A stretch of 23,184 bases of DNA from a virus, in the IMG/VR virus record IMGVR_UViG_3300025652_000577, positions 1 to 23,184 of that record; one strand, given 5' to 3'. The notes under the pieces were generated by a model, which saw only the letters and a program-made list of their open reading frames with translations, was not told the origin of the DNA and ran no database searches. Numbering within the stretch: the first letter of the stretch is position 1; every line of letters begins with the position of its first letter. Below, piece by piece: positions 970 through 12,585 of this stretch. The position numbers and the translations under genes were made by a program.

Positions 970-1722
970 ATGTCAGGAATTACAAATTATACATATGATA
1001 CTTTAAAACAAGCAATCCTAGATTACACTGAGGTTGATAGTAATGTATTTACTACAACTATTTTAGATGGTTTTATTATGGCTGCACAAAACAGAATTAA
1101 TTTAGACCTTCCTATGGACTCAGATAGATTTCAAGATCAAGGACAATTGGTGACAGATTTTAATACAATTACTATGCCTGTTAAACTTTTATTTGTAAGA
1201 GGTATAGAAGTGTTTAATTCAACAGCAAATACTAACGGTCAAGGAATATGGTTAGAGAAACGTGATCAAACATTTATGTCAGAGTACGTTGGTAATTTAA
1301 CAGGAACATCTGGTGGTGCAGCATCTCAAGATGTAACAGGTCTTCCTAAATACTATGCAATGTTTGGTGGTGCAACAACAGGAGCAACAAGATCTACTTC
1401 AGGTGCTATTTATTTAGCTCCAACACCAGACGCTAATTATCAATATATTATACATTATAATGCAATGCCTGTAGGATTAGGTTCTGGTGGTGATGGAAAT
1501 TCTAATACTTATTTAAGTAATTACTTTCCTCAAGGTCTATTATATGCTTGTTTATCAGAAGCATTTATGTTTTTAAAAGGTCCAACAGACATGTTGACAC
1601 TATATGAAAATAAGTATAAAACTGAACTACAAAAGTTTGCAGCGATGCAACTTGGAAGAAGAAGAAGAGACGATTACACGGATGGAACAATAAGAATACC
1701 AATCGAGTCAGCGCCTCAGTAA
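970..1722 (+). CDS. SU10-type head-tail adaptor protein
   Basis: 250 residues. The order of features matches the phage adaptor family typified by phage SU10: an N-terminal helical part (YTYDTLKQAILDYTEVD, then FIMAAQNRINLDLPMD), a central beta-part with the LPKYYAMFGG and IYLAPTPDANYQYIIHYNAMP segments, and a C-terminal helical bundle (FPQGLLYACLSEAFMFLKGP, YENKYKTEL) ending in a basic run GRRRRDD. Adaptors of this class dock on the portal and carry the tail nozzle and fibres. The gene starts three bases after the previous stop and has no clear ribosome binding site. The family call rests on overall pattern and position, not on an alignment. Confidence 0.72.
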   Translation: MSGITNYTYDTLKQAILDYTEVDSNVFTTTILDGFIMAAQNRINLDLPMDSDRFQDQGQLVTDFNTITMPVKLLFVRGIEVFNSTANTNGQGIWLEKRDQTFMSEYVGNLTGTSGGAASQDVTGLPKYYAMFGGATTGATRSTSGAIYLAPTPDANYQYIIHYNAMPVGLGSGGDGNSNTYLSNYFPQGLLYACLSEAFMFLKGPTDMLTLYENKYKTELQKFAAMQLGRRRRDDYTDGTIRIPIESAPQ

Positions 1723-2172: not shown

Positions 2173-2213
2173 GTAACGACGGATGTCCGTTACTAGAACT
2201 TTTACAGTAACGG
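2173..2213 (+). promoter_or_regulatory. Possible two-state RNA hairpin at a start codon
   Basis: Segment B (2187-2194, CCGTTACT) is perfectly complementary to segment C (2206-2213, AGTAACGG), giving an 8-bp stem with an 11-base loop. B also pairs with segment A (GTAACG, 2173-2178) through 6 bp plus a G-U pair at 2172, which would place the ATG at 2183 in a 9-base loop and cover the end of the weak Shine-Dalgarno. The two stems exclude each other. The complementarity is seen directly; a regulatory role is inferred and could be chance, since B and C are coding. Confidence 0.3.
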
Positions 2214-3544
2214 TAGTCAGTACCGGTTCAGGAAATAAATATTTTATTGATGGAGTACAACAAGCTACTTTACTTTTAGGTGAAGGTGGTACATATAAAT
2301 TTGATCAATCCGATAATTCAAATGGTAATCACCCTTTAAGATTTTCAACAACTAGTGATGGAACACATAGTGGAGGTGACGAGTACACTACTGGTGTAAC
2401 TACAAACGGTAGTCCAGGTAATGCTGGGGCTTACACTCAAATAGTTGTAGCTGAAAGTGCACCAACTCTTTATTACTATTGCACAAATCACTCAGGAATG
2501 GGTGGACAAGCAAATACTGTTGACGGAAACTCATGGGGACTTATGTCCTGGGGTGCAAACGAATATGGAAGTCAAGATGCGATTGATGTTATACTAACCG
2601 GTGTATCAGCTACATCCAATGTAGGTGCTGTAGATGCTTTTAATACAGAAGGTTGGGGTAGACAGGAATGGGGCAACTCCGGTTGGGGCGTAGATTATGC
2701 AGTACAACCCACGGGTTTATCTGCTACATCAGCAATTGGAAGTGTTACTGCTTTGGACACACAAACTGTTATACCAACAGGGGTTAGTGCAACTTCTTCT
2801 GTAGGTTCTATAACTGCGGGTGTATTATCTATTGCAGCTTTAACAGGTGTACAAGCACAAACAGAATTAGGTACTTTTGATAACGCAGGTACATTAGTTG
2901 GTTGGGGTAGAAATGGTTGGGGTGAAGAACCTTATGGAGATTCGTTTAATAGTTTAGTTCAACCTGTTGGAGTTAGTGCAACATCTAGCCTTGGATCATT
3001 AACAGCTACACCAGAAACATTTGTATCTTTAACAGGGTTGAGTTCTACTTCTGCTGTAGGTAGTTTAGATTTTATTGTAAGTCCTGTAGTTATACCAACT
3101 GGATTATCAGTTACATCTAACGTCGGTGCTCCTTTAATAACACAGGCCACTGTTGGATTAACAGGTCTTGGAATGACTTCTACAGTTGGTGGAATAATTC
3201 TAGATGCTTTAATAGTTGAATTAGATGGTCTATCTACAACTTCATCTGTAGGAGCTTTATCAGAACAAATTTCTCAAGTTCTAACAGGTGTATCATCAAC
3301 ATCTGCTGTAGGAACTTTAGTTCCTGAAATAGGAGTTCCAGTAACGGGTCTATCAACTACATCTGCAGTAGGTTCAATTTCACCTTCAGATGTAATGGGC
3401 TTAACAGGAGTACAAGCGACAACAGAGTTAAACCCTAATGTTGGTTTAAAGTATTTAAATAGATTAATTCCTAAAGATGGCACAGGTTATACTAGATTAT
3501 CACCTAAAGATGGCACAGGTTACACAAGAAAAACAGCAAACTAA
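2183..3544 (+). CDS. Tail-associated repeat protein with N-terminal cupredoxin-like domain
   Basis: 453 residues in three parts. Residues 1-112 look like a cupredoxin: beta strands, His50 in GNHPLRF, then YYYCTNHSGMGG giving Cys100, His103 and Met106. This His-Cys-X2-His-X2-Met set is a complete type 1 copper site with the C-X2-H-X2-M spacing of amicyanin. Residues ~117-160 and ~240-255 carry three Trp-Gly modules (SWGLMSWGANEYG, GWGRQEWGNSGWG, GWGRNGWGEEPYG). Residues ~138-417 hold twelve copies of a motif like LTGVSATSAVGS. The C-terminus has a tandem PKDGTGYTR pair. Repeats and location argue for a virion tail or fibre protein. There is no signal peptide, so the domain would be loaded with metal, if at all, in the cell or in seawater. 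A weak GAGG (2170-2173) overlaps the previous stop, and the start lies in a possible hairpin. Confidence 0.72.
   Translation: MSVTRTFTVTVVSTGSGNKYFIDGVQQATLLLGEGGTYKFDQSDNSNGNHPLRFSTTSDGTHSGGDEYTTGVTTNGSPGNAGAYTQIVVAESAPTLYYYCTNHSGMGGQANTVDGNSWGLMSWGANEYGSQDAIDVILTGVSATSNVGAVDAFNTEGWGRQEWGNSGWGVDYAVQPTGLSATSAIGSVTALDTQTVIPTGVSATSSVGSITAGVLSIAALTGVQAQTELGTFDNAGTLVGWGRNGWGEEPYGDSFNSLVQPVGVSATSSLGSLTATPETFVSLTGLSSTSAVGSLDFIVSPVVIPTGLSVTSNVGAPLITQATVGLTGLGMTSTVGGIILDALIVELDGLSTTSSVGALSEQISQVLTGVSSTSAVGTLVPEIGVPVTGLSTTSAVGSISPSDVMGLTGVQATTELNPNVGLKYLNRLIPKDGTGYTRLSPKDGTGYTRKTAN
2594..3433 (+). repeat. Twelve degenerate LTGVSATSxVGS protein repeats
   Basis: Within the cupredoxin-bearing protein, a ~12-residue motif recurs twelve times: examples are LTGVSATSNVGAV, PTGLSATSAIGSV, PTGVSATSSVGSI, LTGLSSTSAVGSL and VTGLSTTSAVGSI. 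Two members (LTGVQAQTELGTF and LTGVQATTELNPN) diverge in the same way, VQAxTEL. Spacing is irregular because linkers and one Trp-Gly module lie between units. At DNA level the copies have drifted, so this is an old protein repeat rather than a recent tandem duplication. Confidence 0.85.
3470..3529 (+). repeat. 33-bp period direct repeat at a gene 3' end
   Basis: A 20-base sequence (cctaaagatggcacaggtta) is exact at 3470-3489 and 3503-3522, with near-identity continuing for several bases. It encodes two tandem copies of PKDGTGYTR at the extreme C-terminus of the repeat protein. The near-identity of the DNA contrasts with the drifted upstream repeats and suggests a recent duplication. Confidence 0.85.
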
Positions 3545-3547
3545 TGT

Positions 3548-3575
3548 TTGACTTTAAGTATATAAGTAATATAAA
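3548..3575 (+). promoter_or_regulatory. Sigma70-like promoter candidate
   Basis: TTGACT (3548-3553) and TATAAA (3570-3575) are separated by 16 bases in the 58-base gap before the fibre gene at 3603, one of the few true intergenic spaces here. A Shine-Dalgarno-like CAGGAG (3588-3593) follows before the ATG. In AT-rich DNA such matches arise by chance, and no phage-type promoter was ruled out. Confidence 0.35.
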
Positions 3576-3602
3576 TTAACAAGCTAACAGGAGAACAAAA
3601 TT

Positions 3603-4700
3603 ATGGCATCAACTTTTACAAACCTTGGCGTAGAGCTAATGGCAACTGGCGAAAATGCTGGTACTTGGGGAACAAAAACTAACGCTAACTTACAACTTGC
3701 AGAACAGTTATTAGGTGGATTTAAAATTCAAACCTTAAATGCAGCAGGTACAGGAGCTAACACTACAGCATTAACAGTAGAAGATGGAGCTTTAACAGGT
3801 GCCGCTCAAAACAGAGTTATTATTCTTGGTGCAGTATCACCAGAAGCAATTACAGGAAACAAAGTTGTAACATTCCCTCTTCTTACAGAAACTTTTTATT
3901 TTATTAAAAACAGCACATCAGGTGCATACACAGTTCAGTTAAAAGCAGCTTCTGGTTCAGGAGCTACAGTTACTTTTTCAGCAACAGACAAAGGATATAA
4001 AGCTATATACCTTGATGGTGTTGCAACTAATACTGGAGTTATTGAAATACCTTTATCTACAGCAGGTACAGTAACAGAAACTGGCACTCAAACTTTAACA
4101 AACAAAACTTTAACATCACCTAAAATTGGAACTTCAATTTTAGATACTAATGGAAACGAATTATTTAAACTAACTGCAACAGGTTCAGCGGTTAATGAAT
4201 TAACATATGCTAATGCAGCAACAGGAAACAAACCAGCATTTACTGCAACTGGTGGTGATACTAATATTGGTGTATCAATACAACCAAAAGGTTCGGGAAC
4301 AGTTACTATTGATGCTTTAACTTTTCCTGCGGCAGACGGATCAGCAGATCAAATTTTAACAACTAATGGTTCTGGAGTATTATCTTTTGTAGATAATTCT
4401 GGCGGTACATCATGGCAAGCAGTAAAAACTTCTGGTTTTACAGCTGTTGCTGGTGAAGGTTATTTTATTAATACAACAAGTGGTGCTATAGAAATGGACT
4501 TACCTGCAGGAAGTATTGGAGACGAAGTATCTTTTATAGATTATGCAGGAACATTTGATTCTAACGCACTTACAGTTGATCCAAATGGTTCAGAAAAAAT
4601 TGCAGGATCTACGGATAGTTTAACAGTTTCAGTAGAAAGAGCGGCTAACACATTGGTCTATGTAGATGGAACTCAGGGTTGGCTCTTAAAAAATAATTAA
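3603..4700 (+). CDS. Tail fibre or collar-like structural protein
   Basis: 365 residues. The N-terminus (MASTFTNLGVELMATGENAG, then TWGTKTNANLQLAEQLLGG) is the virion-attachment type seen in marine phage fibre proteins. The middle has the segment TQTLTNKTLTSPKIG, a widespread phage tail-fibre signature, followed by LDTNGNELFKL and beta-helix-like strands (FTATGGDTNIGVSIQPKGSG, DGSADQILTTNGSGVLSFV). The C-terminal ~90 residues form a compact beta-domain ending in TLVYVDGTQGWLLKNN. No catalytic motif is visible. It has its own Shine-Dalgarno and a possible promoter. Fibre function is well supported by family features; the receptor is unknown. Confidence 0.8.
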   Translation: MASTFTNLGVELMATGENAGTWGTKTNANLQLAEQLLGGFKIQTLNAAGTGANTTALTVEDGALTGAAQNRVIILGAVSPEAITGNKVVTFPLLTETFYFIKNSTSGAYTVQLKAASGSGATVTFSATDKGYKAIYLDGVATNTGVIEIPLSTAGTVTETGTQTLTNKTLTSPKIGTSILDTNGNELFKLTATGSAVNELTYANAATGNKPAFTATGGDTNIGVSIQPKGSGTVTIDALTFPAADGSADQILTTNGSGVLSFVDNSGGTSWQAVKTSGFTAVAGEGYFINTTSGAIEMDLPAGSIGDEVSFIDYAGTFDSNALTVDPNGSEKIAGSTDSLTVSVERAANTLVYVDGTQGWLLKNN

Positions 4701-4865: not shown

Positions 4866-5834
4866 ATGAGTACTTATAAAGCTTTAATTGGAAAATATGT
4901 AAGATCAGTATCAAGTGATCCTACTGCAGCTTATGCTGATGGTGAAATTTGGTATAATACAAGTAGTAATACTTTTAAAATTGGTCTTCAAGTAGGAGCA
5001 TGGGCATCTGGTGGTACTGTAAATACTGCAAGAAGATATACAAATGGTGGTGGAACTCAAACTGCAGGATTAATGGTTAATGGATACTCAACAGGTTTTA
5101 GTGCTGACACAGAAGAATACAATGGTTCATCTTGGACATCTGTAACTAACGCACCTTTTGCAGTTTATAATTCATCAGGTGGAGGAACTCAAACTTCTTT
5201 TTTTATGACAGGTGGAGATTTAGGTCCCTCGGTTAACACAGTTACTGCTGAATACGATGGATCTAACTGGACTACTACTAATAATAACCCCAACGCTAGA
5301 AATGGTGGTGGTGGATGTGGAACACAAACTGCAGGTTTATATGCAGGTGGTCAAGGAAATACTGGCACACAAACTTATAATGGCAGTTCATGGACTTCTA
5401 CTGGACATAGTTTGAATGAGGCAAGAAAAGAAGTAAGTCAAGCTATGACTGGAATCACAACTGCTGCCGTAATTGTAGGTGATCAACCTTCAAGTGCTGT
5501 TGTAGAAGAATATAATGGTAGTTCGTGGACTTCTCAAACAGCGGTACCTACTGCAGGTTATGCAAGAAGTTCTAGTGGTATACAAACTTCAGCTTTATAC
5601 TATGGAGGAGGTTCTAGTGGTTTTGGAGGAACTACAGCTGCTTTATATGATGGTTCAGCTTGGACAAACGTAGCTGATTTAGCTACTCCAAGAGGCGGAG
5701 GTGCATCAGGTAAAAATGCTTCAACATCATCTTTAGCTTTTATGGCTGGAGGACAAACACCTGGTCCAAGTAATAGTAATAAAACAGAAGAATGGACAAA
5801 CGCAGCTGGTATAAAAACAGTAACAACAAGTTGA
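4866..5834 (+). CDS. Kelch-like beta-propeller tail protein, copy 1
   Basis: 322 residues. A ~40-residue anchor (RSVSSDPTAAYADGEIWYNT) is followed by about six blades built on a repeated unit of the form GGGTQTAGLYAGG then EEYNGSSWTS. Blade-end versions seen are YNGSSWTSV, YDGSNWTTT, YNGSSWTST, YNGSSWTSQ, YDGSAWTNV and a terminal EEWTNA. This is the pattern of kelch-type propellers found in marine phage tail proteins and presumed to bind host surface ligands. The end is GIKTVTTS. The gene begins four bases after the short paralogue and lacks a clear Shine-Dalgarno. The propeller fold is inferred from the repeats; ligand unknown. Confidence 0.75.
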   Translation: MSTYKALIGKYVRSVSSDPTAAYADGEIWYNTSSNTFKIGLQVGAWASGGTVNTARRYTNGGGTQTAGLMVNGYSTGFSADTEEYNGSSWTSVTNAPFAVYNSSGGGTQTSFFMTGGDLGPSVNTVTAEYDGSNWTTTNNNPNARNGGGGCGTQTAGLYAGGQGNTGTQTYNGSSWTSTGHSLNEARKEVSQAMTGITTAAVIVGDQPSSAVVEEYNGSSWTSQTAVPTAGYARSSSGIQTSALYYGGGSSGFGGTTAALYDGSAWTNVADLATPRGGGASGKNASTSSLAFMAGGQTPGPSNSNKTEEWTNAAGIKTVTTS

Positions 5835-6195: not shown

Positions 6196-7146
6196 ATGAG
6201 TAGTTACAATGTAATTAATGGATTAAAAGTTAGGTTTCTAACAGCAGATCCCCCTAGTCCAGAAAATGGTGAGGTATGGTATAATTCAAGTTCTATACGT
6301 GCTCAAGGTATTGCGGGTACAGGCGTATGGTCGTCTGGTGGATCCGCTCCAGCAGGACTTTCAGGATCAAGTATGGCTGGTAATAATACAGATGCTATGC
6401 AGTGGGGTGGAGACAATGGAGGTGGAACTCCTACTTGGCCTAGAACTTCACATCATTATAATGGTACTTCTTGGACAGGAGATGGAACTATTCCTACATC
6501 AGTTAACAATACAGGACAAGCAGGAGTAGGACATACAACTGCTATAATGTGGGGAGGTTATAATCCCCCAGGTGGTGCAGCAAGTGTAACAAATATATTT
6601 AATGGTTCATCTTGGACAGCGAGTGGAAATTTAAATAATGCTAGACAATATGCTTATTCTACTGGAGCTGGCCCACAAACAGCAGCTGTTGCAATAGGTG
6701 GAGGTCCAAACCAAGCTGTACACGAACATTTCAATGGATCTAGTTGGACGACAAAAACAAGTTTTCCTAGCGGAGCAAATTCTGTATATGCAATTGGAAC
6801 ACAAGCGGCAACTTTAGGTGTTTCAGGTGCTAATGGAACAACAGCATCTTGGAATGGTTCATCTTGGACTGGAATCCCATCTAGTTTAAATAATAATAGA
6901 CAGTATGGAGCAGCAGGAGGTTCAAATACTTCATCAGCATATGTATTTGGAGGAGGAAGTTCAACTACAGTAGAATTATATAATGGCACAAGTTGGGCTA
7001 CACAACCTTCTATGGCTAGGGCTAGAGAAAGTGGTGGTGGATCAGGAATTACAAGTAATGCATTAATAGCTGGATCAACATACGGTAATAGTTCTGTAGA
7101 AGAATTTACTATTCCATTTGGAACTGCAACAATATCTTCAAGTTAG
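6196..7146 (+). CDS. Kelch-like beta-propeller tail protein, copy 2
   Basis: 316 residues and the same design as the protein at 4866: anchor (MSSYNVINGLKVRFLTADPP, then ENGEVWYNSSS), five to six blades ending in HYNGTSWTG, IFNGSSWTA, HFNGSSWTTK, SWNGSSWTG and LYNGTSWAT, and a closing VEEFTIPFGTATISSS. Anchors and blade ends are conserved between the two copies while the loops differ (for example MQWGGDNGGG and IMWGGYNPPG here), as expected for receptor-binding proteins evolving different specificities. TAGGAA before the ATG may act as the ribosome binding site. Confidence 0.75.
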   Translation: MSSYNVINGLKVRFLTADPPSPENGEVWYNSSSIRAQGIAGTGVWSSGGSAPAGLSGSSMAGNNTDAMQWGGDNGGGTPTWPRTSHHYNGTSWTGDGTIPTSVNNTGQAGVGHTTAIMWGGYNPPGGAASVTNIFNGSSWTASGNLNNARQYAYSTGAGPQTAAVAIGGGPNQAVHEHFNGSSWTTKTSFPSGANSVYAIGTQAATLGVSGANGTTASWNGSSWTGIPSSLNNNRQYGAAGGSNTSSAYVFGGGSSTTVELYNGTSWATQPSMARARESGGGSGITSNALIAGSTYGNSSVEEFTIPFGTATISSS

Positions 7147-7148
7147 TC

Positions 7149-7176
7149 TTTACATATTAGTTTAAATAGCTATATT
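7149..7176 (+). promoter_or_regulatory. Sigma70-like promoter candidate before the oxygenase cassette
   Basis: TTTACA (7149-7154) and TATATT (7171-7176), each one base from consensus, are spaced by 16 bases in the 55-base gap before the gene at 7202. AAAGGA follows close to the ATG. If real, it would let the cassette at 7202-10345 be transcribed separately from the fibre genes. AT-richness makes chance matches likely. Confidence 0.35.
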
Positions 7177-7201: not shown

Positions 7202-7882
7202 ATGACAGAAAAAAGAAATATACATGCATTAATAGAAAAAGAAGCGCCTAGCTTAAATAATTTATTAGATCCAAATGATGTAAAAGAATTTAAAGAAATG
7301 ACATCCGAGTTAAGAGATACTTGGACTAAAAAACAAGTCTTTAGAACAGAAACAGAAATGAGAATGTCTGTTTTACAAGATGCAAAATATCCAACAAAAG
7401 CTTCTAAGTATTGGCAGTGTGTCAGAGAACAAAATGTATTTTTAGAAAATTTAATGACTTTGTCTTTTGATTGTAGACGTAATGAAGTTAGATTAAAAAG
7501 ATTACAAGAAAAATTAAAGACAGAAGAAGATCCTTTAAAAAGAGAATTACTTCAAATAGATATAGATGAAAAAAGATATGGTTTAGCCAACATGCAACTT
7601 ACTGCTAAAGACAGAATGAGAGAAATTAAACTATGGTCAACTCTTAAAAAAGAATTTAATGATGGTTCATTTGATGATAAAGACGTTAACAGACATCAAC
7701 TAGAATCTTACCATCAAATTATGAAAAACAAAGCAGAGACATTGACTCAAGGATCATCTCAGCCAGAAGTATTTAATGTGCTTGGACAGTTACAAACAAT
7801 AGAAAGAGTTAAAAAATCAGGAGAAATGATTTACAATAAGAAAGAACAATTGACCAATGACCTTGGAGCCACCGAAAAATAA
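7202..7882 (+). CDS. Helical coiled-coil protein heading the oxygenase cassette
   Basis: 226 residues, strongly charged and predicted almost wholly helical by eye. Segments such as NEVRLKRLQEKLKTEEDPLK and a later KRYGLANMQLTAKDRMREIK look like coiled coil. No enzymatic motif or membrane segment is visible. The C-terminal 26 bases overlap the start of the first oxygenase gene in another frame, implying translational coupling. It may be a scaffold or adaptor for the oxygenases, or a fibre chaperone; both are inference. I do not recognise a characterised family. Confidence 0.6.
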   Translation: MTEKRNIHALIEKEAPSLNNLLDPNDVKEFKEMTSELRDTWTKKQVFRTETEMRMSVLQDAKYPTKASKYWQCVREQNVFLENLMTLSFDCRRNEVRLKRLQEKLKTEEDPLKRELLQIDIDEKRYGLANMQLTAKDRMREIKLWSTLKKEFNDGSFDDKDVNRHQLESYHQIMKNKAETLTQGSSQPEVFNVLGQLQTIERVKKSGEMIYNKKEQLTNDLGATEK

Positions 7883-8525
7883 TTTTGATTTTATATTTTT
7901 AGGTCAAGCGGTATTAAAATATCAAGTACCTCTTGATATATATAATACTATTAATAATATTTATGAAACTAAATACACTGAATTAAAACCTGCTAATAAA
8001 CAACTTGTTGGTAAAATTGAAAAAGAACATAGTCTATTTTATAGTGGTGAAGATACTTCTAAAATGACTAGACATAATCATTTACCAAGAAATATATTAT
8101 ATTGGTTTAATGAAAAATTTAAACATTATTTAGATTGGAATAGAGTAAGAGAATATAATATGAATTTAAATTCTGTATGGGTTAACACTATGTTTGAGCA
8201 TGAATACAATCCAGTACACGTGCATCAAGGATCAATATCAACAGGTCTATCTAGTGTTATGGTTTTAAAATTACCAGAGTCTTATGGCGTAGAATATTCA
8301 GCAGCAGACTCACCACAAAATGGTAAACTTCAAATTTTAGGTTCAACCAACGGTCAGTTTGCTAATGTAGATTATGAACCAATATTAAAAGAAGGAGATT
8401 TTTTTATATTTCCATACGATATGAGACACTGTGTATATCCTTTTAATGGTCCTGGGTATAGAAGAACGCTTGCTGCAAATATGGATGTTGACTACAGTTC
8501 AATAAAAAATAGAGGAGTACAATAA
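7857..8525 (+). CDS. 2OG-Fe(II) oxygenase-like protein 1
   Basis: 222 residues. An N-terminal region (FIFLGQAVLKYQVPLDIYN) is followed by a double-stranded beta-helix core: SVWVNTMFEHEYNPVHVHQG with His121 and His123, then LSSVMVLKLPES, then GDFFIFPYDMRHCVYPF with His191, and YRRTLAANMDV with Arg202/203 as candidate 2-oxoglutarate binder. Such proteins use 2-oxoglutarate, O2 and Fe(II), usually to hydroxylate a protein or small molecule. The proximal pair is H-X-H where HxD/E is usual, so ligand assignment is uncertain. The start at 7857 lies within the preceding gene; no later ATG would keep the N-terminal segment. The stop forms a TAATG junction with the next gene. Confidence 0.65.
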   Translation: MTLEPPKNNFDFIFLGQAVLKYQVPLDIYNTINNIYETKYTELKPANKQLVGKIEKEHSLFYSGEDTSKMTRHNHLPRNILYWFNEKFKHYLDWNRVREYNMNLNSVWVNTMFEHEYNPVHVHQGSISTGLSSVMVLKLPESYGVEYSAADSPQNGKLQILGSTNGQFANVDYEPILKEGDFFIFPYDMRHCVYPFNGPGYRRTLAANMDVDYSSIKNRGVQ

Positions 8526-9118
8526 TGTACGAAAACAGACAGATTACAGAACCGAAATGGAAAAGTTGGATAGTTCATACAACAACACCATTGTTTACAC
8601 CAGATCAATGCAGACAAATTATTGCATCAGGTAGAGCACAGAAACCACAACAAGGACAAGTGGGAATGAATAAACCAGGTGGTGGAACCCATACAAACAA
8701 AAGAATTACAACAATTAGTTGGATACCATTTAAAGAAATGTCACATATGTATGTAGACCTTAATAACTTTATACAGAAAGCAAATGAAAATCATTTTGGT
8801 TTTGGTGACATACAAATAACAGAACAAGCACAGTTTACAGAATATCCTGAAGGAGGGTTCTATGATTGGCATATGGATTGTGATGTAAACATGCAACATG
8901 AGCCACCTGTTAGAAAAATATCAATGACTCTTTTGTTAAATGATCCGTCAGAATTTGAAGGTGGAGAATTAGAATTAATGGCTCCTGGTAAATCTGCAAG
9001 TTTAAAACAAGGACACGCTATTATATTTGCATCGTTTTTAAATCATAAAGTTAATCCAGTAACTAGAGGTATAAGACAATCTTTAGTTTGTTGGTTTGGA
9101 GGAAAATCATTTAGATGA
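8525..9118 (+). CDS. PKHD/prolyl 4-hydroxylase-type 2OG-Fe(II) oxygenase
   Basis: 197 residues and the clearest member of the cluster. It matches the P4Hc/PiuC-like pattern: FYDWHMDCD gives His116 and Asp118, ISMTLLLNDPSEFEGGELEL is the classic core strand pair, ASFLNHKVNPVTRG gives the distal His174, and RQSLVCWFGG gives Arg184 as the 2-oxoglutarate salt-bridge residue. All catalytic positions are present, so it is probably an active cytoplasmic dioxygenase that hydroxylates a protein or peptide side chain. Its substrate cannot be inferred. It overlaps the preceding gene by one base (TAATG) and the following gene by four (ATGA). Confidence 0.82.
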   Translation: MYENRQITEPKWKSWIVHTTTPLFTPDQCRQIIASGRAQKPQQGQVGMNKPGGGTHTNKRITTISWIPFKEMSHMYVDLNNFIQKANENHFGFGDIQITEQAQFTEYPEGGFYDWHMDCDVNMQHEPPVRKISMTLLLNDPSEFEGGELELMAPGKSASLKQGHAIIFASFLNHKVNPVTRGIRQSLVCWFGGKSFR

Positions 9119-9693
9119 TCAAAGAACAATTTTTTCCAACAACTATATATGCTAAAGATATTAAATTAGACAATCAACTTTTTACCAACGAAATTGTAGA
9201 ATGGTCTAAGAAAGACCCAGGACTTCAAAAAACAAACAAAAACGGTTGGCACTCTACAACTGAAATGCATGAACTGCCTGTTTTTCAACCTTTAGTTAAT
9301 GAATTGTTTTTGATGATGAATGACATATGGAAAGAAGAATGGTTAGATAGAGAACCTATACTAGGTAATATGTGGGCAAACATAAATCCCCCAGGTGGAT
9401 ACAACGTTCCACACATACATCCTAATAGTTTATTTAGCGGTGTGTATTATATAAAAGCTCCAAAAAATTCTGGTAATTTATGTTGTGATGAACCAAGAGC
9501 AGGGGCACAATTAAATATGCCAATAAGAAAAGAAGGTAAACTACCAAAAGAACTATGGAGAGAAGTGTATTTAGAACCTGTTGAAGGTAGAATTATAATA
9601 TTTCCATATTACCTTTGGCACAATGTTACACCTAACAAATCAAATGATATAAGAATATCAGTAAGTTTTAATTTTATACAACATGGTTTTTAA
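9115..9693 (+). CDS. 2OG-Fe(II) oxygenase of the TIGR02466 / 2OG-FeII_Oxy_5 type
   Basis: 192 residues. The family layout is visible: N-terminal FFPTTIYAKDI, WANINPPGGYNVPHIHPNS with His100 and His102, then SGVYYIKAP, a DEPR segment (residues 125-128), and EGRIIIFPYYLWHNVTPN with His169 followed by DIRISVSFNF with Arg180. These are the conserved blocks of this putative 2OG-Fe(II) oxygenase family, widespread in marine phages and bacteria. The H-X-H pair in place of HxD is usual in this family as I know it, but the exact ligands are uncertain. Its reading frame overlaps both neighbours. Confidence 0.75.
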   Translation: MIKEQFFPTTIYAKDIKLDNQLFTNEIVEWSKKDPGLQKTNKNGWHSTTEMHELPVFQPLVNELFLMMNDIWKEEWLDREPILGNMWANINPPGGYNVPHIHPNSLFSGVYYIKAPKNSGNLCCDEPRAGAQLNMPIRKEGKLPKELWREVYLEPVEGRIIIFPYYLWHNVTPNKSNDIRISVSFNFIQHGF

Positions 9694-10345
9694 TAAATAT
9701 CAATTAATTAAGAATGCAATTAGCTACGAGTTAGCTAATTTTGTATTTAACTATTTTCTTCTTAAAAGAGATTCAGTTAAATGGATGTATGATAATAACA
9801 TTATTTATGACAATGGTATGTTAGGTACTTGGGTGGACCCACAAATACCTAATACTTTTTCTTGTTATTCTGATCCAGTAATGGAAACGTTATTAGTTAA
9901 AGTATTACCCGTAATGCAAAAAGAAACCGGACTAAATCTATGTCCTACTTATTCCTATGCAAGAATATATAAAAAAGGTGATGAATTAAAAAGACACAAA
10001 GACAGAGAAAGTTGTGAGATATCATGCACACTTAATCTAGGTGGTGACCCTTGGCCTATATTTATTAACCCAAACCCAGAAGCAGGAAATGTTTCTGGCC
10101 CAAAATTAGGAATTAACAAAATACAAAAATACCATCCTACTACGGATAAAGGTACTAAAGTCTTGCTTGAAGTAGGAGATATGCTAGTATATAGTGGATG
10201 TGAACTTGAACATTGGCGAGAGCCTTTTGACAAGGACATATGCGGTCAAGTATTTCTACATTATAATCATGTAAATGGCCCATTTGCTGAGAAAAACAAA
10301 TTTGATGGAAGACCTATGTTAGGTCTACCTGGATTTGTAAAATAG
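9683..10345 (+). CDS. 2OG-Fe(II) oxygenase-like protein 4
   Basis: 220 residues, different in sequence from the other three. Core features are TYSYARIYKKGDELKRHKDR with His105 and Asp107 (an HxD pair), CTLNLGGDPWPIFINP as the core strand, GDMLVYSGCELEHWREPF with distal His177, and CGQVFLHYNHVNGP. The C-terminal Arg for 2-oxoglutarate is not obvious; Arg179 is one candidate. It is probably an oxygenase acting on an unknown substrate. The gene overlaps the preceding one by 11 bases and closes the cassette; the next gene follows after 17 bases. Confidence 0.7.
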   Translation: MVFNKYQLIKNAISYELANFVFNYFLLKRDSVKWMYDNNIIYDNGMLGTWVDPQIPNTFSCYSDPVMETLLVKVLPVMQKETGLNLCPTYSYARIYKKGDELKRHKDRESCEISCTLNLGGDPWPIFINPNPEAGNVSGPKLGINKIQKYHPTTDKGTKVLLEVGDMLVYSGCELEHWREPFDKDICGQVFLHYNHVNGPFAEKNKFDGRPMLGLPGFVK

Positions 10346-10362
10346 TATTATAATGGATTTAT

Positions 10363-12585
10363 ATGTTACAAAAATTAGGGTTTTTACCAGGGTTTAATAA
10401 ACAAGTTACATCAACAGGTGCTGAGTCGCAATGGATAGATGGAGAAAATGTACGTTTTAGATATGGTACACCAGAAAAAATAGGTGGTTGGAATCAATTA
10501 GGTGAATCAAAGCTTACAGGTGCTGCTAGAGGTTTGCATCATTTTGTAAACAAATCATCAACTAAATTTGCAGCTATAGGAACTAACAAAATTTTATACA
10601 TATATTCTGGTGGTGTTTACTATGATATACATCCACTAACTAATCCATCGGGTACAGCTATTACAAGTGCATTTAGCACAACTAACGGATCTCCAACTGT
10701 AACACTTACATTTGGTGGTTCACACAATTTTCAACCACAAGATATTATTTTATTTGGTGATGCTAGTACGTTTAGTGCTATTACAAATTCTAATTTTAGT
10801 GCCTCAGATTTTGCTGATAAAAAATTTATGATAACAAGTGTACCAACTACTTCTACAATTACTATTACAATGCCTAGTAATGAAACAGGATCAGGTGCAA
10901 CAACATCTGGTGGTATAACATATTTTCAATACTATCACGTAGGACCAGCAGAACAACTAGGTGCGTTTGGTTGGGGAATATCATTGTGGGGTGGTAACAT
11001 TTTAGGTGCATTGACAACTACATTAAACGGTGCACTAGGAGATAATACTAATGGTAACAATAGTTCAGCTACAGAAATTACATTAGCTAGTACGACAGGT
11101 TTTCCAAGTTCTGGTACAAACTTTATTCAAGTAGGTTCAGAAGAAATATCTTACACAGGAATTACAGGCAGTAAATTAACTGGTATAACAAGAGCTGCGC
11201 GAGGTTCAACAAGAGCTGCGCACAGTAATGGGGCAACCGTAACTAACACTTCATCTTTTACAGGTTGGGGATCACCTGCAGCTAACACCGATTCAGTAAT
11301 TGATCCAGGTCTATGGTCCTTGGATAATTTAGGAACAACACTTATTGCTTTAATCCATAACGGAGAATGTTTTAAATGGGATGGAGATGCAGTTAACGCT
11401 ACAGGCACTAGAGCTACAATTATATCTGGTGCACCAACAGCGTCACGTGATATGTTAGTATCAACACCCGATCGTCACTTAGTATTTTTTGGAACAGAAA
11501 CAACTATTGGTAACAAAGCAACACAAGATGATATGTTTATAAGATTTTCATCTCAAGAAAATATAGAAGACTATACACCAACAGCTGAAAATAGTGCTGG
11601 TACACAAAGACTGGCCTCTGGATCACGGATCATGGGAGCTAAACTTGGTAGAAATGCAATATACATTTGGAGTGACACTTCTTTATTTACTATGAGATTT
11701 GTTGGTCAACCATTTACATTTGCTTTTGAACAAACAGGTACTAACTGTGGATTGATTGGTATGAATGCAGCTGTAGAAGTTGATGGTGCTGCGTATTGGA
11801 TGTCTGATAATGGTTTCTTTAGATATACAGGTAAACTAGAATCTATGGATTGTTTAGTAGAAGATTTTGTTTACGATGATCTCAACACTACATCTAATCA
11901 ATTAATTTATTGTGGTATTAATAACTTGTTTGGTGAGATTACTTGGTTTTATCCAACGTCTACATCTAATGTAAATACTAGAGCAGTTACATATAGTTAT
12001 CTAGACTCAACAGCTAAACGACCTATATGGTTTACTAATGCTAGTACCTTGTTTCCTAGAAGCACATGGGAAGACTCAGCAGTATTTGGTTTACCTCATG
12101 CAACAAAATACAATCCAAGTGATGATGTATCATTTGATGTAATCGGTAATACTGAAGGTGTAACAATATACTTTGAACACGAAACAGGAGTTAACCAGCA
12201 AGAAGCAGGGACCACGGCTGTAGCTATTCCAGCAAACATTACATCTGGTGATTATGATATTACACAAAAAGTTGTTAGAGGAGCTGCAACTAATTTAGGT
12301 GACCTTAGAGGTGACGGTGAAAATATTATGAGAGTAAGTAGAATTATACCTGACTTTATATCACAACAAGGAAGTGCTATTGTACAATTAGATTTAAGAA
12401 ACTACCCTAATGATACGGCTGCTAGCTCATCATTGGGTCCATTTACTGTAACATCTTCAACAGATAAAGTAGACACACGTGCTAGAGGTAGAGCTATAGC
12501 TCTTACAATATCCAATACTGCAGTAGATACTAGTTGGAAACTAGGGACTTTTAGGTTAGACATACAAACTGGAGGAAGACGATAA
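10363..12585 (+). CDS. Tail nozzle or stem-like protein
   Basis: 740 residues. The N-terminus (KLGFLPGFNKQVTSTGAESQ) followed by ENVRFRYGTPEKIGGW is the hallmark of a large podoviral tail protein family related to nozzle or packaged-DNA stabilisation proteins. Later segments (GAKLGRNAIYIWSDTSLFTM, GLIGMNAAVEVDGAAYWMSD, NNLFGEITWFYPT) suggest a beta-propeller body. Two insert domains are visible: residues ~97-185 (TVTLTFGGSHNFQPQDIILF) and ~236-293 (ATEITLASTTGFPSSG, ISYTGITGS, TRAARGSTRAAHSNGATV), the second matching a domain at 149-967. It has no clear Shine-Dalgarno, and an in-frame stop at 10351-10353 fixes 10363 as the first ATG. A role at the end of the tail below the adaptor is inferred. 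Confidence 0.72.
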   Translation: MLQKLGFLPGFNKQVTSTGAESQWIDGENVRFRYGTPEKIGGWNQLGESKLTGAARGLHHFVNKSSTKFAAIGTNKILYIYSGGVYYDIHPLTNPSGTAITSAFSTTNGSPTVTLTFGGSHNFQPQDIILFGDASTFSAITNSNFSASDFADKKFMITSVPTTSTITITMPSNETGSGATTSGGITYFQYYHVGPAEQLGAFGWGISLWGGNILGALTTTLNGALGDNTNGNNSSATEITLASTTGFPSSGTNFIQVGSEEISYTGITGSKLTGITRAARGSTRAAHSNGATVTNTSSFTGWGSPAANTDSVIDPGLWSLDNLGTTLIALIHNGECFKWDGDAVNATGTRATIISGAPTASRDMLVSTPDRHLVFFGTETTIGNKATQDDMFIRFSSQENIEDYTPTAENSAGTQRLASGSRIMGAKLGRNAIYIWSDTSLFTMRFVGQPFTFAFEQTGTNCGLIGMNAAVEVDGAAYWMSDNGFFRYTGKLESMDCLVEDFVYDDLNTTSNQLIYCGINNLFGEITWFYPTSTSNVNTRAVTYSYLDSTAKRPIWFTNASTLFPRSTWEDSAVFGLPHATKYNPSDDVSFDVIGNTEGVTIYFEHETGVNQQEAGTTAVAIPANITSGDYDITQKVVRGAATNLGDLRGDGENIMRVSRIIPDFISQQGSAIVQLDLRNYPNDTAASSSLGPFTVTSSTDKVDTRARGRAIALTISNTAVDTSWKLGTFRLDIQTGGRR

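Follow-up and report, generated by a model that had tools for sequence, protein, structure and literature searches.

Four coupled 2OG-Fe(II) oxygenase-type genes beside the receptor-binding genes of a likely SAR11 phage, and their possible action on virion proteins

Why would a phage keep four different Fe(II)/2-oxoglutarate (2OG) oxygenase genes in a row among the genes for its virion? The question is raised by IMG/VR virus record IMGVR_UViG_3300025652_000577 (23,184 bases; this whole stretch is called the window here), in which the gene for a helical protein, HEL, and four oxygenase-type genes, OGa, OGb, OGc and OGd, form a cassette at positions 7202-10345. A sequence-only reading had reported four consecutive 2OG-Fe(II)-type genes behind a helical gene, set between receptor-binding and nozzle genes; the coordinates proved exact, a kelch-like gene lies 5' and a nozzle gene 3' by PHROG matches, and three of the oxygenases were recognized by Pfam and OGd by its fold and residues (Table 1). 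We tentatively propose, giving the idea a little less than an even chance, that several independent oxygenases are co-produced with late structural proteins and act most likely on virion proteins.

OGa, OGb and OGc each scored above the Pfam cut-offs for 2OG-Fe(II) oxygenase families. The PF13640 profile, together with H-x-D/E…H…R residues, assigns OGb to the 2OG-Fe(II) oxygenase superfamily: H116, D/E118 and H174 are kept in 107/107 representatives, and position 184, presumed to bind 2OG, is occupied by arginine in 96 of them and by lysine in the other 11. The canonical 2-His-1-carboxylate triad (H-x-D/E…H) was not found in OGa or OGc, which carry an invariant H-x-H…H instead; the PF13759 profile assigns both to the superfamily, with a putative metal site. 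H121, H123, H191 and R202 of OGa are invariant in 122/122 representatives, as are the three histidines of OGc in 132/132 (its arginine is kept in 122 of these), and the identical H-x-H motif is carried, at the sequence level, by 3BVC and 2RG4, solved PF13759 relatives of OGc from the marine Roseobacter group. The four oxygenases had been described as divergent, and OGa and OGc are indeed the only pair detected by BLASTP at E <0.01 (29% identity over 111 amino acids, E 1e-6). All four are probably active.

OGd required a different approach. Its Pfam search was empty at E<=1 and a PDB sequence search found nothing; it matches phrog_2954 (2e-48), the public label of which is ferrochelatase. However, an AlphaFold2 (AF2) model built from 50 relatives (predicted local distance difference test, pLDDT, 81; predicted template modelling score, pTM, 0.77) matched 395 PDB chains at E<=1e-3 in Foldseek. 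The best match was the Pseudomonas putida prolyl hydroxylase (4J25/4IW3; 1.5e-7), a likeness of fold at an identity of about 15% and a template modelling (TM) score of about 0.5, from which the substrate is not transferable; the next were PHDs and a chlorella-virus prolyl hydroxylase. Almost all of the 50 structural matches listed were 2OG oxygenases, prolyl hydroxylases first, and none was a ferrochelatase. Residues H105, D107, H177 and R179 are invariant in 93/93 representatives. When 50 members of the OGd family were compared with Pfam, neither a ferrochelatase nor an oxygenase match was obtained. Because the fold matches prolyl hydroxylases and the H-x-D…H…R residues are invariant, the ferrochelatase label looks wrong, and the model makes OGd most likely a prolyl-hydroxylase-like 2OG oxygenase. 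A caveat comes from hhalign, which found no sequence homology between OGd and OGb (probability 0.2%, from a shallow alignment). An indirect link exists in cyanophage S-SCSM2R, where the OGd family is naturally fused with an OGb domain, and in phrog_3531, a single fused family of which OGd and OGb match different halves. Together with the Pfam results, the OGd model means that none of the four oxygenases lacks jelly-roll-type evidence, a check proposed with the sequence-only reading.

The ferrochelatase label is at least as old as T4-GC 615, which PMC3037559 lists as 'hypothetical with ferrochetalase domain', and the phrog_2954 / T4-GC 615 label underlies arguments about iron or haem metabolism (PMC9599517, PMC11561400). 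With OGd relabelled, the oxygenase-ferrochelatase partnership published there becomes an oxygenase cluster. Genes labelled 'DNA endonuclease V' (phrog_274 / phrog_2297) within oxygenase runs share H-x-D…R and match oxygenase profiles, and are probably mislabelled oxygenases as well; hhalign of OGd against these families was not significant.

The arrangement of the cassette is strongly conserved. The overlaps of 26, 1, 4 and 11 bases (HEL-OGa, OGa-OGb, OGb-OGc and OGc-OGd), which had been counted correctly before, are near-fixed in relatives (OGa-OGb, 1 nt; OGb-OGc, 4 nt; and, where a sulfotransferase gene follows HEL, 26 nt in 74/75). The order HEL-OGa-OGb-OGc-OGd-nozzle is kept in 143/143 distinct HEL-to-nozzle segments of IMG/VR, counted after duplicate removal, including the window and belonging to one clade; thus, in the neighbourhood survey that had been suggested, the genes were not independently shuffled within the clade. 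HEL, OGa or OGd served as the query for many of the surveyed loci, which biases these toward presence; in the fairer sample of nozzle-seeded loci with at least 5 kb upstream, HEL occurred in 9/24, and all 9 had the full set. The cassette genes are under purifying selection, with a median ratio of nonsynonymous to synonymous substitution (dN/dS) of 0.073 for HEL, 0.077 for OGb, 0.081 for OGd, 0.129 for OGa and 0.235 for OGc (nozzle gene, 0.125). Conservation across many contigs under such selection argues that the gene set is not a product of chance, and its features support a translationally coupled unit of fixed order in the virion-structure region. An oxygenase gene adjoins OGd in 88/90 cases, OGd usually being the last of the run. 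Oxygenase genes are duplicated in some relatives, one locus (L179) reaching six in succession, and two near-identical contigs carry ten consecutive oxygenase-type genes (L398:2500-8091 and L400:1506-7097). The promoter-like sequence said to precede the set did not stand out: the site at 7149-7176 is one of 23 matches in the region, where 20.5 +/- 4.7 are expected, and seven others likewise match at 10 of 12.

HEL appears to belong elsewhere than with the enzymes. Its AF2 model is all helix (pLDDT 76), in agreement with the earlier description. A tblastn search of isolate phages gave no direct match, and homology was recovered through PHROG profile and fold: the phrog_1409 profile matches 21/27 HEL members (best 5.8e-6), and the HEL model matches the S-ShM2 homologue in BFVD. 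The HEL profile found nothing in eleven phage records, two of which were matched by phrog_1409, and a PDB fold search gave nothing at E<=1e-3. By profile and fibre-block location, HEL is assigned as a putative distant member of phrog_1409 / T4-GC 353, the cyanophage members of which are found in the T4-GC 351-354 fibre block. In S-CAM4 and S-RIM2 this block contains a HEL homologue with flanking oxygenases; in P-HM2 no oxygenase is recognized in the ~6 kb around the homologue. Of 80 distinct loci anchored on the nozzle gene, 55 have both HEL and the kelch-like family and 25 have neither; OGa tracks the kelch-like type (55/55 with HEL and kelch, 1/25 without), and OGb is kept in 24/25 of the HEL-less loci. 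We therefore regard HEL as a probable accessory or assembly protein of the fibre module, separate from the enzymes.

Other genes enter the cassette. A sulfotransferase gene (265 amino acids, PF13469 2.6e-13; for example, L124:921-1715) lies between HEL and OGa in 79/143 cassettes, and its presence or absence changes at least 33 times on a HEL tree of weak resolution. The idea that this enzyme targets acidic-Tyr motifs of kelch fibres was dropped, as an association with an uncorrected p value of 8e-5 gave no signal in phylogenetically independent pairs. A single open reading frame joining HEL and the sulfotransferase (L071:1125-2534), which may be truly fused or may result from a frameshift within the 26-nt overlap, was excluded as evidence. 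Small open reading frames (105-140 amino acids) of three groups are inserted at different points (L180:4695-5018, L010:924-1286 and L118:6884-7291); two groups resemble the ParB N-terminal domain (ParB_N) just under the Pfam cut-off, and the third by eye only.

Related genes are widespread in marine phages. OGb-OGc-OGd recur in HTVC023P, 023Pt_psg01, HTVC033P and one Pelagibacteraceae contig. In two HTVC023P-type pelagiphages (MN698239 gp65-67 and MW574966; PMC9599517) the trio likewise lies 5' of a related nozzle gene, but, unlike in the window, HEL and OGa are absent. The HTVC023P-type genes were described as close but non-adjacent and varied in order, with OGd named ferrochelatase (PMC9599517), whereas adjacency and order are strict in the clade of the window. 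The statement that single oxygenases are known in marine phages was an understatement: HTVC023P-type phages have eight nonorthologous oxygenase families (PMC9599517), S-SCSM1 has 24 oxygenases per genome (PMC9602691), runs of 5-6 occur in HTVC008M and Mosig, and the IMG/VR run reaches ten. In T4-like pelagiphages and cyanophages (HTVC008M, Mosig EXVC030M, syn9, S-CAM8 and S-SCSM1) the oxygenase genes are in tandem and often overlap, the OGb, OGc and OGd families are common, and several runs adjoin neck or tail-fibre genes much as the cassette adjoins fibre genes; these phages differ from the window in phage family, gene order and gene number. In Mosig EXVC030M, genes annotated as haem oxygenase and phycocyanobilin:ferredoxin oxidoreductase directly follow the oxygenase run (L291:8975-10211), and the HTVC027P oxygenase genes that occupy the cassette site are encoded on the opposite strand (L284:7295-8956).

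The Synechococcus myovirus S-ShM2 offers a close parallel in a block of fibre genes (SShM2_036-042), where the HEL homologue (phrog_1409) is directly followed by a four-gene run, three genes matching PF13759 (one weakly) and one weakly matching DUF6445. Unlike in the window, its OGd homologue lies elsewhere, at 134 kb between gp45 and gp44, at a distance of ~98 kb from the run beside the tail genes (35-38 kb). Kelch proteins occur in S-SKS1 together with a HEL-like protein, a sulfotransferase, OGb and OGd, the same kinds of part as in the cassette clade. Because S-ShM2, S-CAM4, S-RIM2 and S-SKS1 combine them while P-HM2 does not, like kinds of parts appear to have been assembled in unrelated phages, though not always. 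One obligate four-step pathway is unlikely, since OGb-OGc-OGd occur without OGa and the S-ShM2 OGd lies apart; a variable enzyme deck with an OGb-OGc-OGd core fits the data better. Of the joint function first imagined for these genes, then, the divergent, apparently intact, coupled and co-inherited oxygenase-type genes (143/143) stand, and the scaffold and the single stepwise process do not.

We propose that the cassette supplies four separate Fe(II)/2OG oxygenases with intact putative metal-binding residues, coupled with receptor-binding and nozzle genes and presumably produced late. Each would oxidize, most likely hydroxylate, its own target, and the targets would most likely be virion proteins, chiefly tail and receptor-binding proteins. 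The kelch-like receptor-binding protein may be the target of OGa because OGa comes and goes with this receptor-binding type; alternatively, OGa, HEL and kelch may just be markers of one clade. Because the OGb-OGc-OGd trio accompanies several receptor-binding types, it probably acts on a virion or host factor common to them. The sulfotransferase, where present, could act on new or pre-existing hydroxyls. In favour of this proposal we count the Pfam and PHROG matches, the intact motifs, the OGd fold and the natural OGd-OGb fusion, the fixed order with its frequent sulfotransferase, the overlaps, the purifying selection, the coupling of HEL to the kelch-like protein, the adjacency of OGd to other oxygenases, the Pelagibacteraceae contig with the trio and a nozzle gene, the structural-gene context and the fibre-adjacent oxygenases of unrelated cyanophages. 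Several points weigh against it. Tail-adjacent sites are also a hotspot for auxiliary genes, and in S-ShM2 petE and gnd come after the oxygenases. The HTVC027P cassette is inverted relative to the nozzle gene and the S-ShM2 OGd is off the tail genes, so that such genes need not be linked to tail genes. HEL, OGa and the kelch-like receptor-binding protein are all clade markers, and their coupling therefore does not represent many independent events. In addition, the first-pass association of the sulfotransferase with acidic-Tyr motifs was lost under phylogenetic control. A more ambitious form of the proposal, which we consider rather unlikely, is that a modular deck of 2-10 oxygenases, joined in some phages by a sulfotransferase and ParB-like proteins, adds hydroxyl and perhaps sulfate groups to fibre proteins, altering receptor specificity or stability. 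In that case, abundant marine phages would change the chemistry of the receptor-binding and tail proteins that they make; to our knowledge, a bacteriophage protein-modification system of this kind has no precedent.

Alternatively, the enzymes could be hydroxylases directed at proteins of the host (translation factors, for example) to aid takeover. The top structural match of OGd, a prolyl hydroxylase solved with EF-Tu, and the presence of the trio with several receptor-binding types would suit such a role, but that match is at the level of the fold, and genes in a structural block would be expressed late for takeover; we consider this role unlikely. Next comes the tailoring of envelope, glycan or small molecules, in which the oxygenases and the sulfotransferase would make or modify a surface sugar, lipid or metabolite. 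The frequency of the sulfotransferase is consistent with it, as are the glycosyltransferases found after the fused OGd-OGb gene of S-SCSM2R and 3' of the HTVC023P and HTVC027P nozzle genes; however, the cassette of the window showed neither a sugar-nucleotide gene nor one for a glycosyltransferase, and OGb is prolyl-4-hydroxylase-like, so that this option, too, is unlikely. Auxiliary metabolism has been proposed for 2OG and nitrogen in cyanophages (PMC3037559) and, with ferrochelatase partners, in PMC9599517 and PMC11561400. A drawdown of 2OG, or a role beside a ferrochelatase in the metabolism of iron/haem or nitrogen, is nevertheless improbable here: the 'ferrochelatase' has a predicted oxygenase fold and lacks a ferrochelatase Pfam match, and consuming 2OG needs no four to ten divergent oxygenases. 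AlkB- or TET-like oxidation or repair of nucleic acids, an earlier suggestion for cyanophages (PMC3037559, PMC9146016), some oxygenases of which adjoin the DNA helicase gene uvsW, is very improbable given that the OGb match to Tet_JBP in Pfam is insignificant (E 0.18), that the best matches of OGd are protein hydroxylases and that no DNA-modification gene adjoins the cassette. Least probable of all is the five-protein complex first suggested, with HEL as its scaffold; the fixed order and translational coupling would suit it, but the scaffold is rejected because HEL follows the kelch-like fibre type while 24/25 HEL-less loci still have oxygenases, and the P-HM2 homologue has no recognized oxygenase beside it.

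Multiple oxygenases in marine phages were already known (PMC9599517, PMC9602691, PMC3037559). Judged by the open-licence literature searched, it is new that order and coupling are strict within the clade, that sulfotransferase and ParB-like genes are inserted in the cassette, that HEL and OGa go with the fibre type and that the ferrochelatase label probably needs correcting. Few auxiliary genes are commoner than oxygenases in the phages that infect the most abundant bacteria of the ocean, and the literature surveyed gave no established substrate for the marine-phage enzymes. The strict order in the clade and the recurrent adjacency to fibre genes make virion protein modification a concrete hypothesis that is testable in cultured pelagiphages.

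By Pfam and PHROG, the window is a structural block in which the cassette stands with genes for an SU10-type adaptor, fibre-like proteins, two kelch-like proteins, a nozzle-type protein, an M15 endolysin and other likely virion proteins. The kelch assignment comes from phrog_27227 homologues of S-SKS1, which match a Pfam kelch model. The nozzle protein is ~45% identical to its counterparts in 023Pt_psg01, HTVC023P and HTVC027P. HTCC1062 is the host of phages with related nozzle genes, and two Pelagibacteraceae contigs carry OGd and the nozzle gene, one with OGb-OGc-OGd and the other cut inside OGd; because of these relatives, SAR11 is the likely host. No DNA polymerase for lineage placement was found in the window, and by nozzle identity and the Pelagibacteraceae relatives its phage may be an HTVC023P-related, SAR11-type podophage, of the same lineage or near it.

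Table 1. Positions of the cassette, its neighbours in the window and the relabelled genes of other loci
Feature	Position	Strand	Evidence
SU10-type adaptor / tail protein	970..1722	+	PF24175 E 9e-19; phrog_10775 (tail protein) 1e-29
Kelch-like fibre / receptor-binding protein 1	4866..5834	+	phrog_27227 E 2.4e-46
Kelch-like fibre / receptor-binding protein 2, directly 5' of cassette	6196..7146	+	phrog_27227 E 5.8e-31
HEL, all-helical protein, putative distant phrog_1409 (T4-GC 353) member	7202..7882	+	Profile, AF2 model, BFVD, neighbourhoods
OGa, 2OG-Fe(II) oxygenase type, PF13759	7857..8525	+	Pfam E 2.5e-8; H121-x-H123…H191…R202
OGb, 2OG-Fe(II) oxygenase, PF13640 (prolyl-4-hydroxylase-like)	8525..9118	+	Pfam E 4.1e-15; H116-x-D/E118…H174…R/K184
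OGc, 2OG-Fe(II) oxygenase type, PF13759	9115..9693	+	Pfam E 1.5e-27; H100-x-H102…H169…R180
OGd, predicted 2OG-Fe(II) oxygenase fold, phrog_2954	9683..10345	+	AF2 and Foldseek; H105-x-D107…H177-x-R179
Nozzle / stabilization-type virion protein, 3' boundary of cassette	10363..12585	+	phrog_3287 (virion structural) 2.3e-94
'DNA endonuclease V'-labelled genes in oxygenase runs	L291:6654-7166; L289:2240-2821 and 3426-4010; L282:5313-5795		

Two minor observations concern the surroundings of the cassette. The fibre-like protein encoded at 2183-3544 of the window has an N-terminal H…CTNHSGM pattern that recalls copper-binding cupredoxins; its Pfam and PDB searches were empty, and its PHROG matches were only to tail-fibre, baseplate and unknown families. 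A contig from a Maricaulis metagenome-assembled genome (L447) is a phage of the same clade with the full cassette, and for this reason it is probably a binning contaminant in that assembly.

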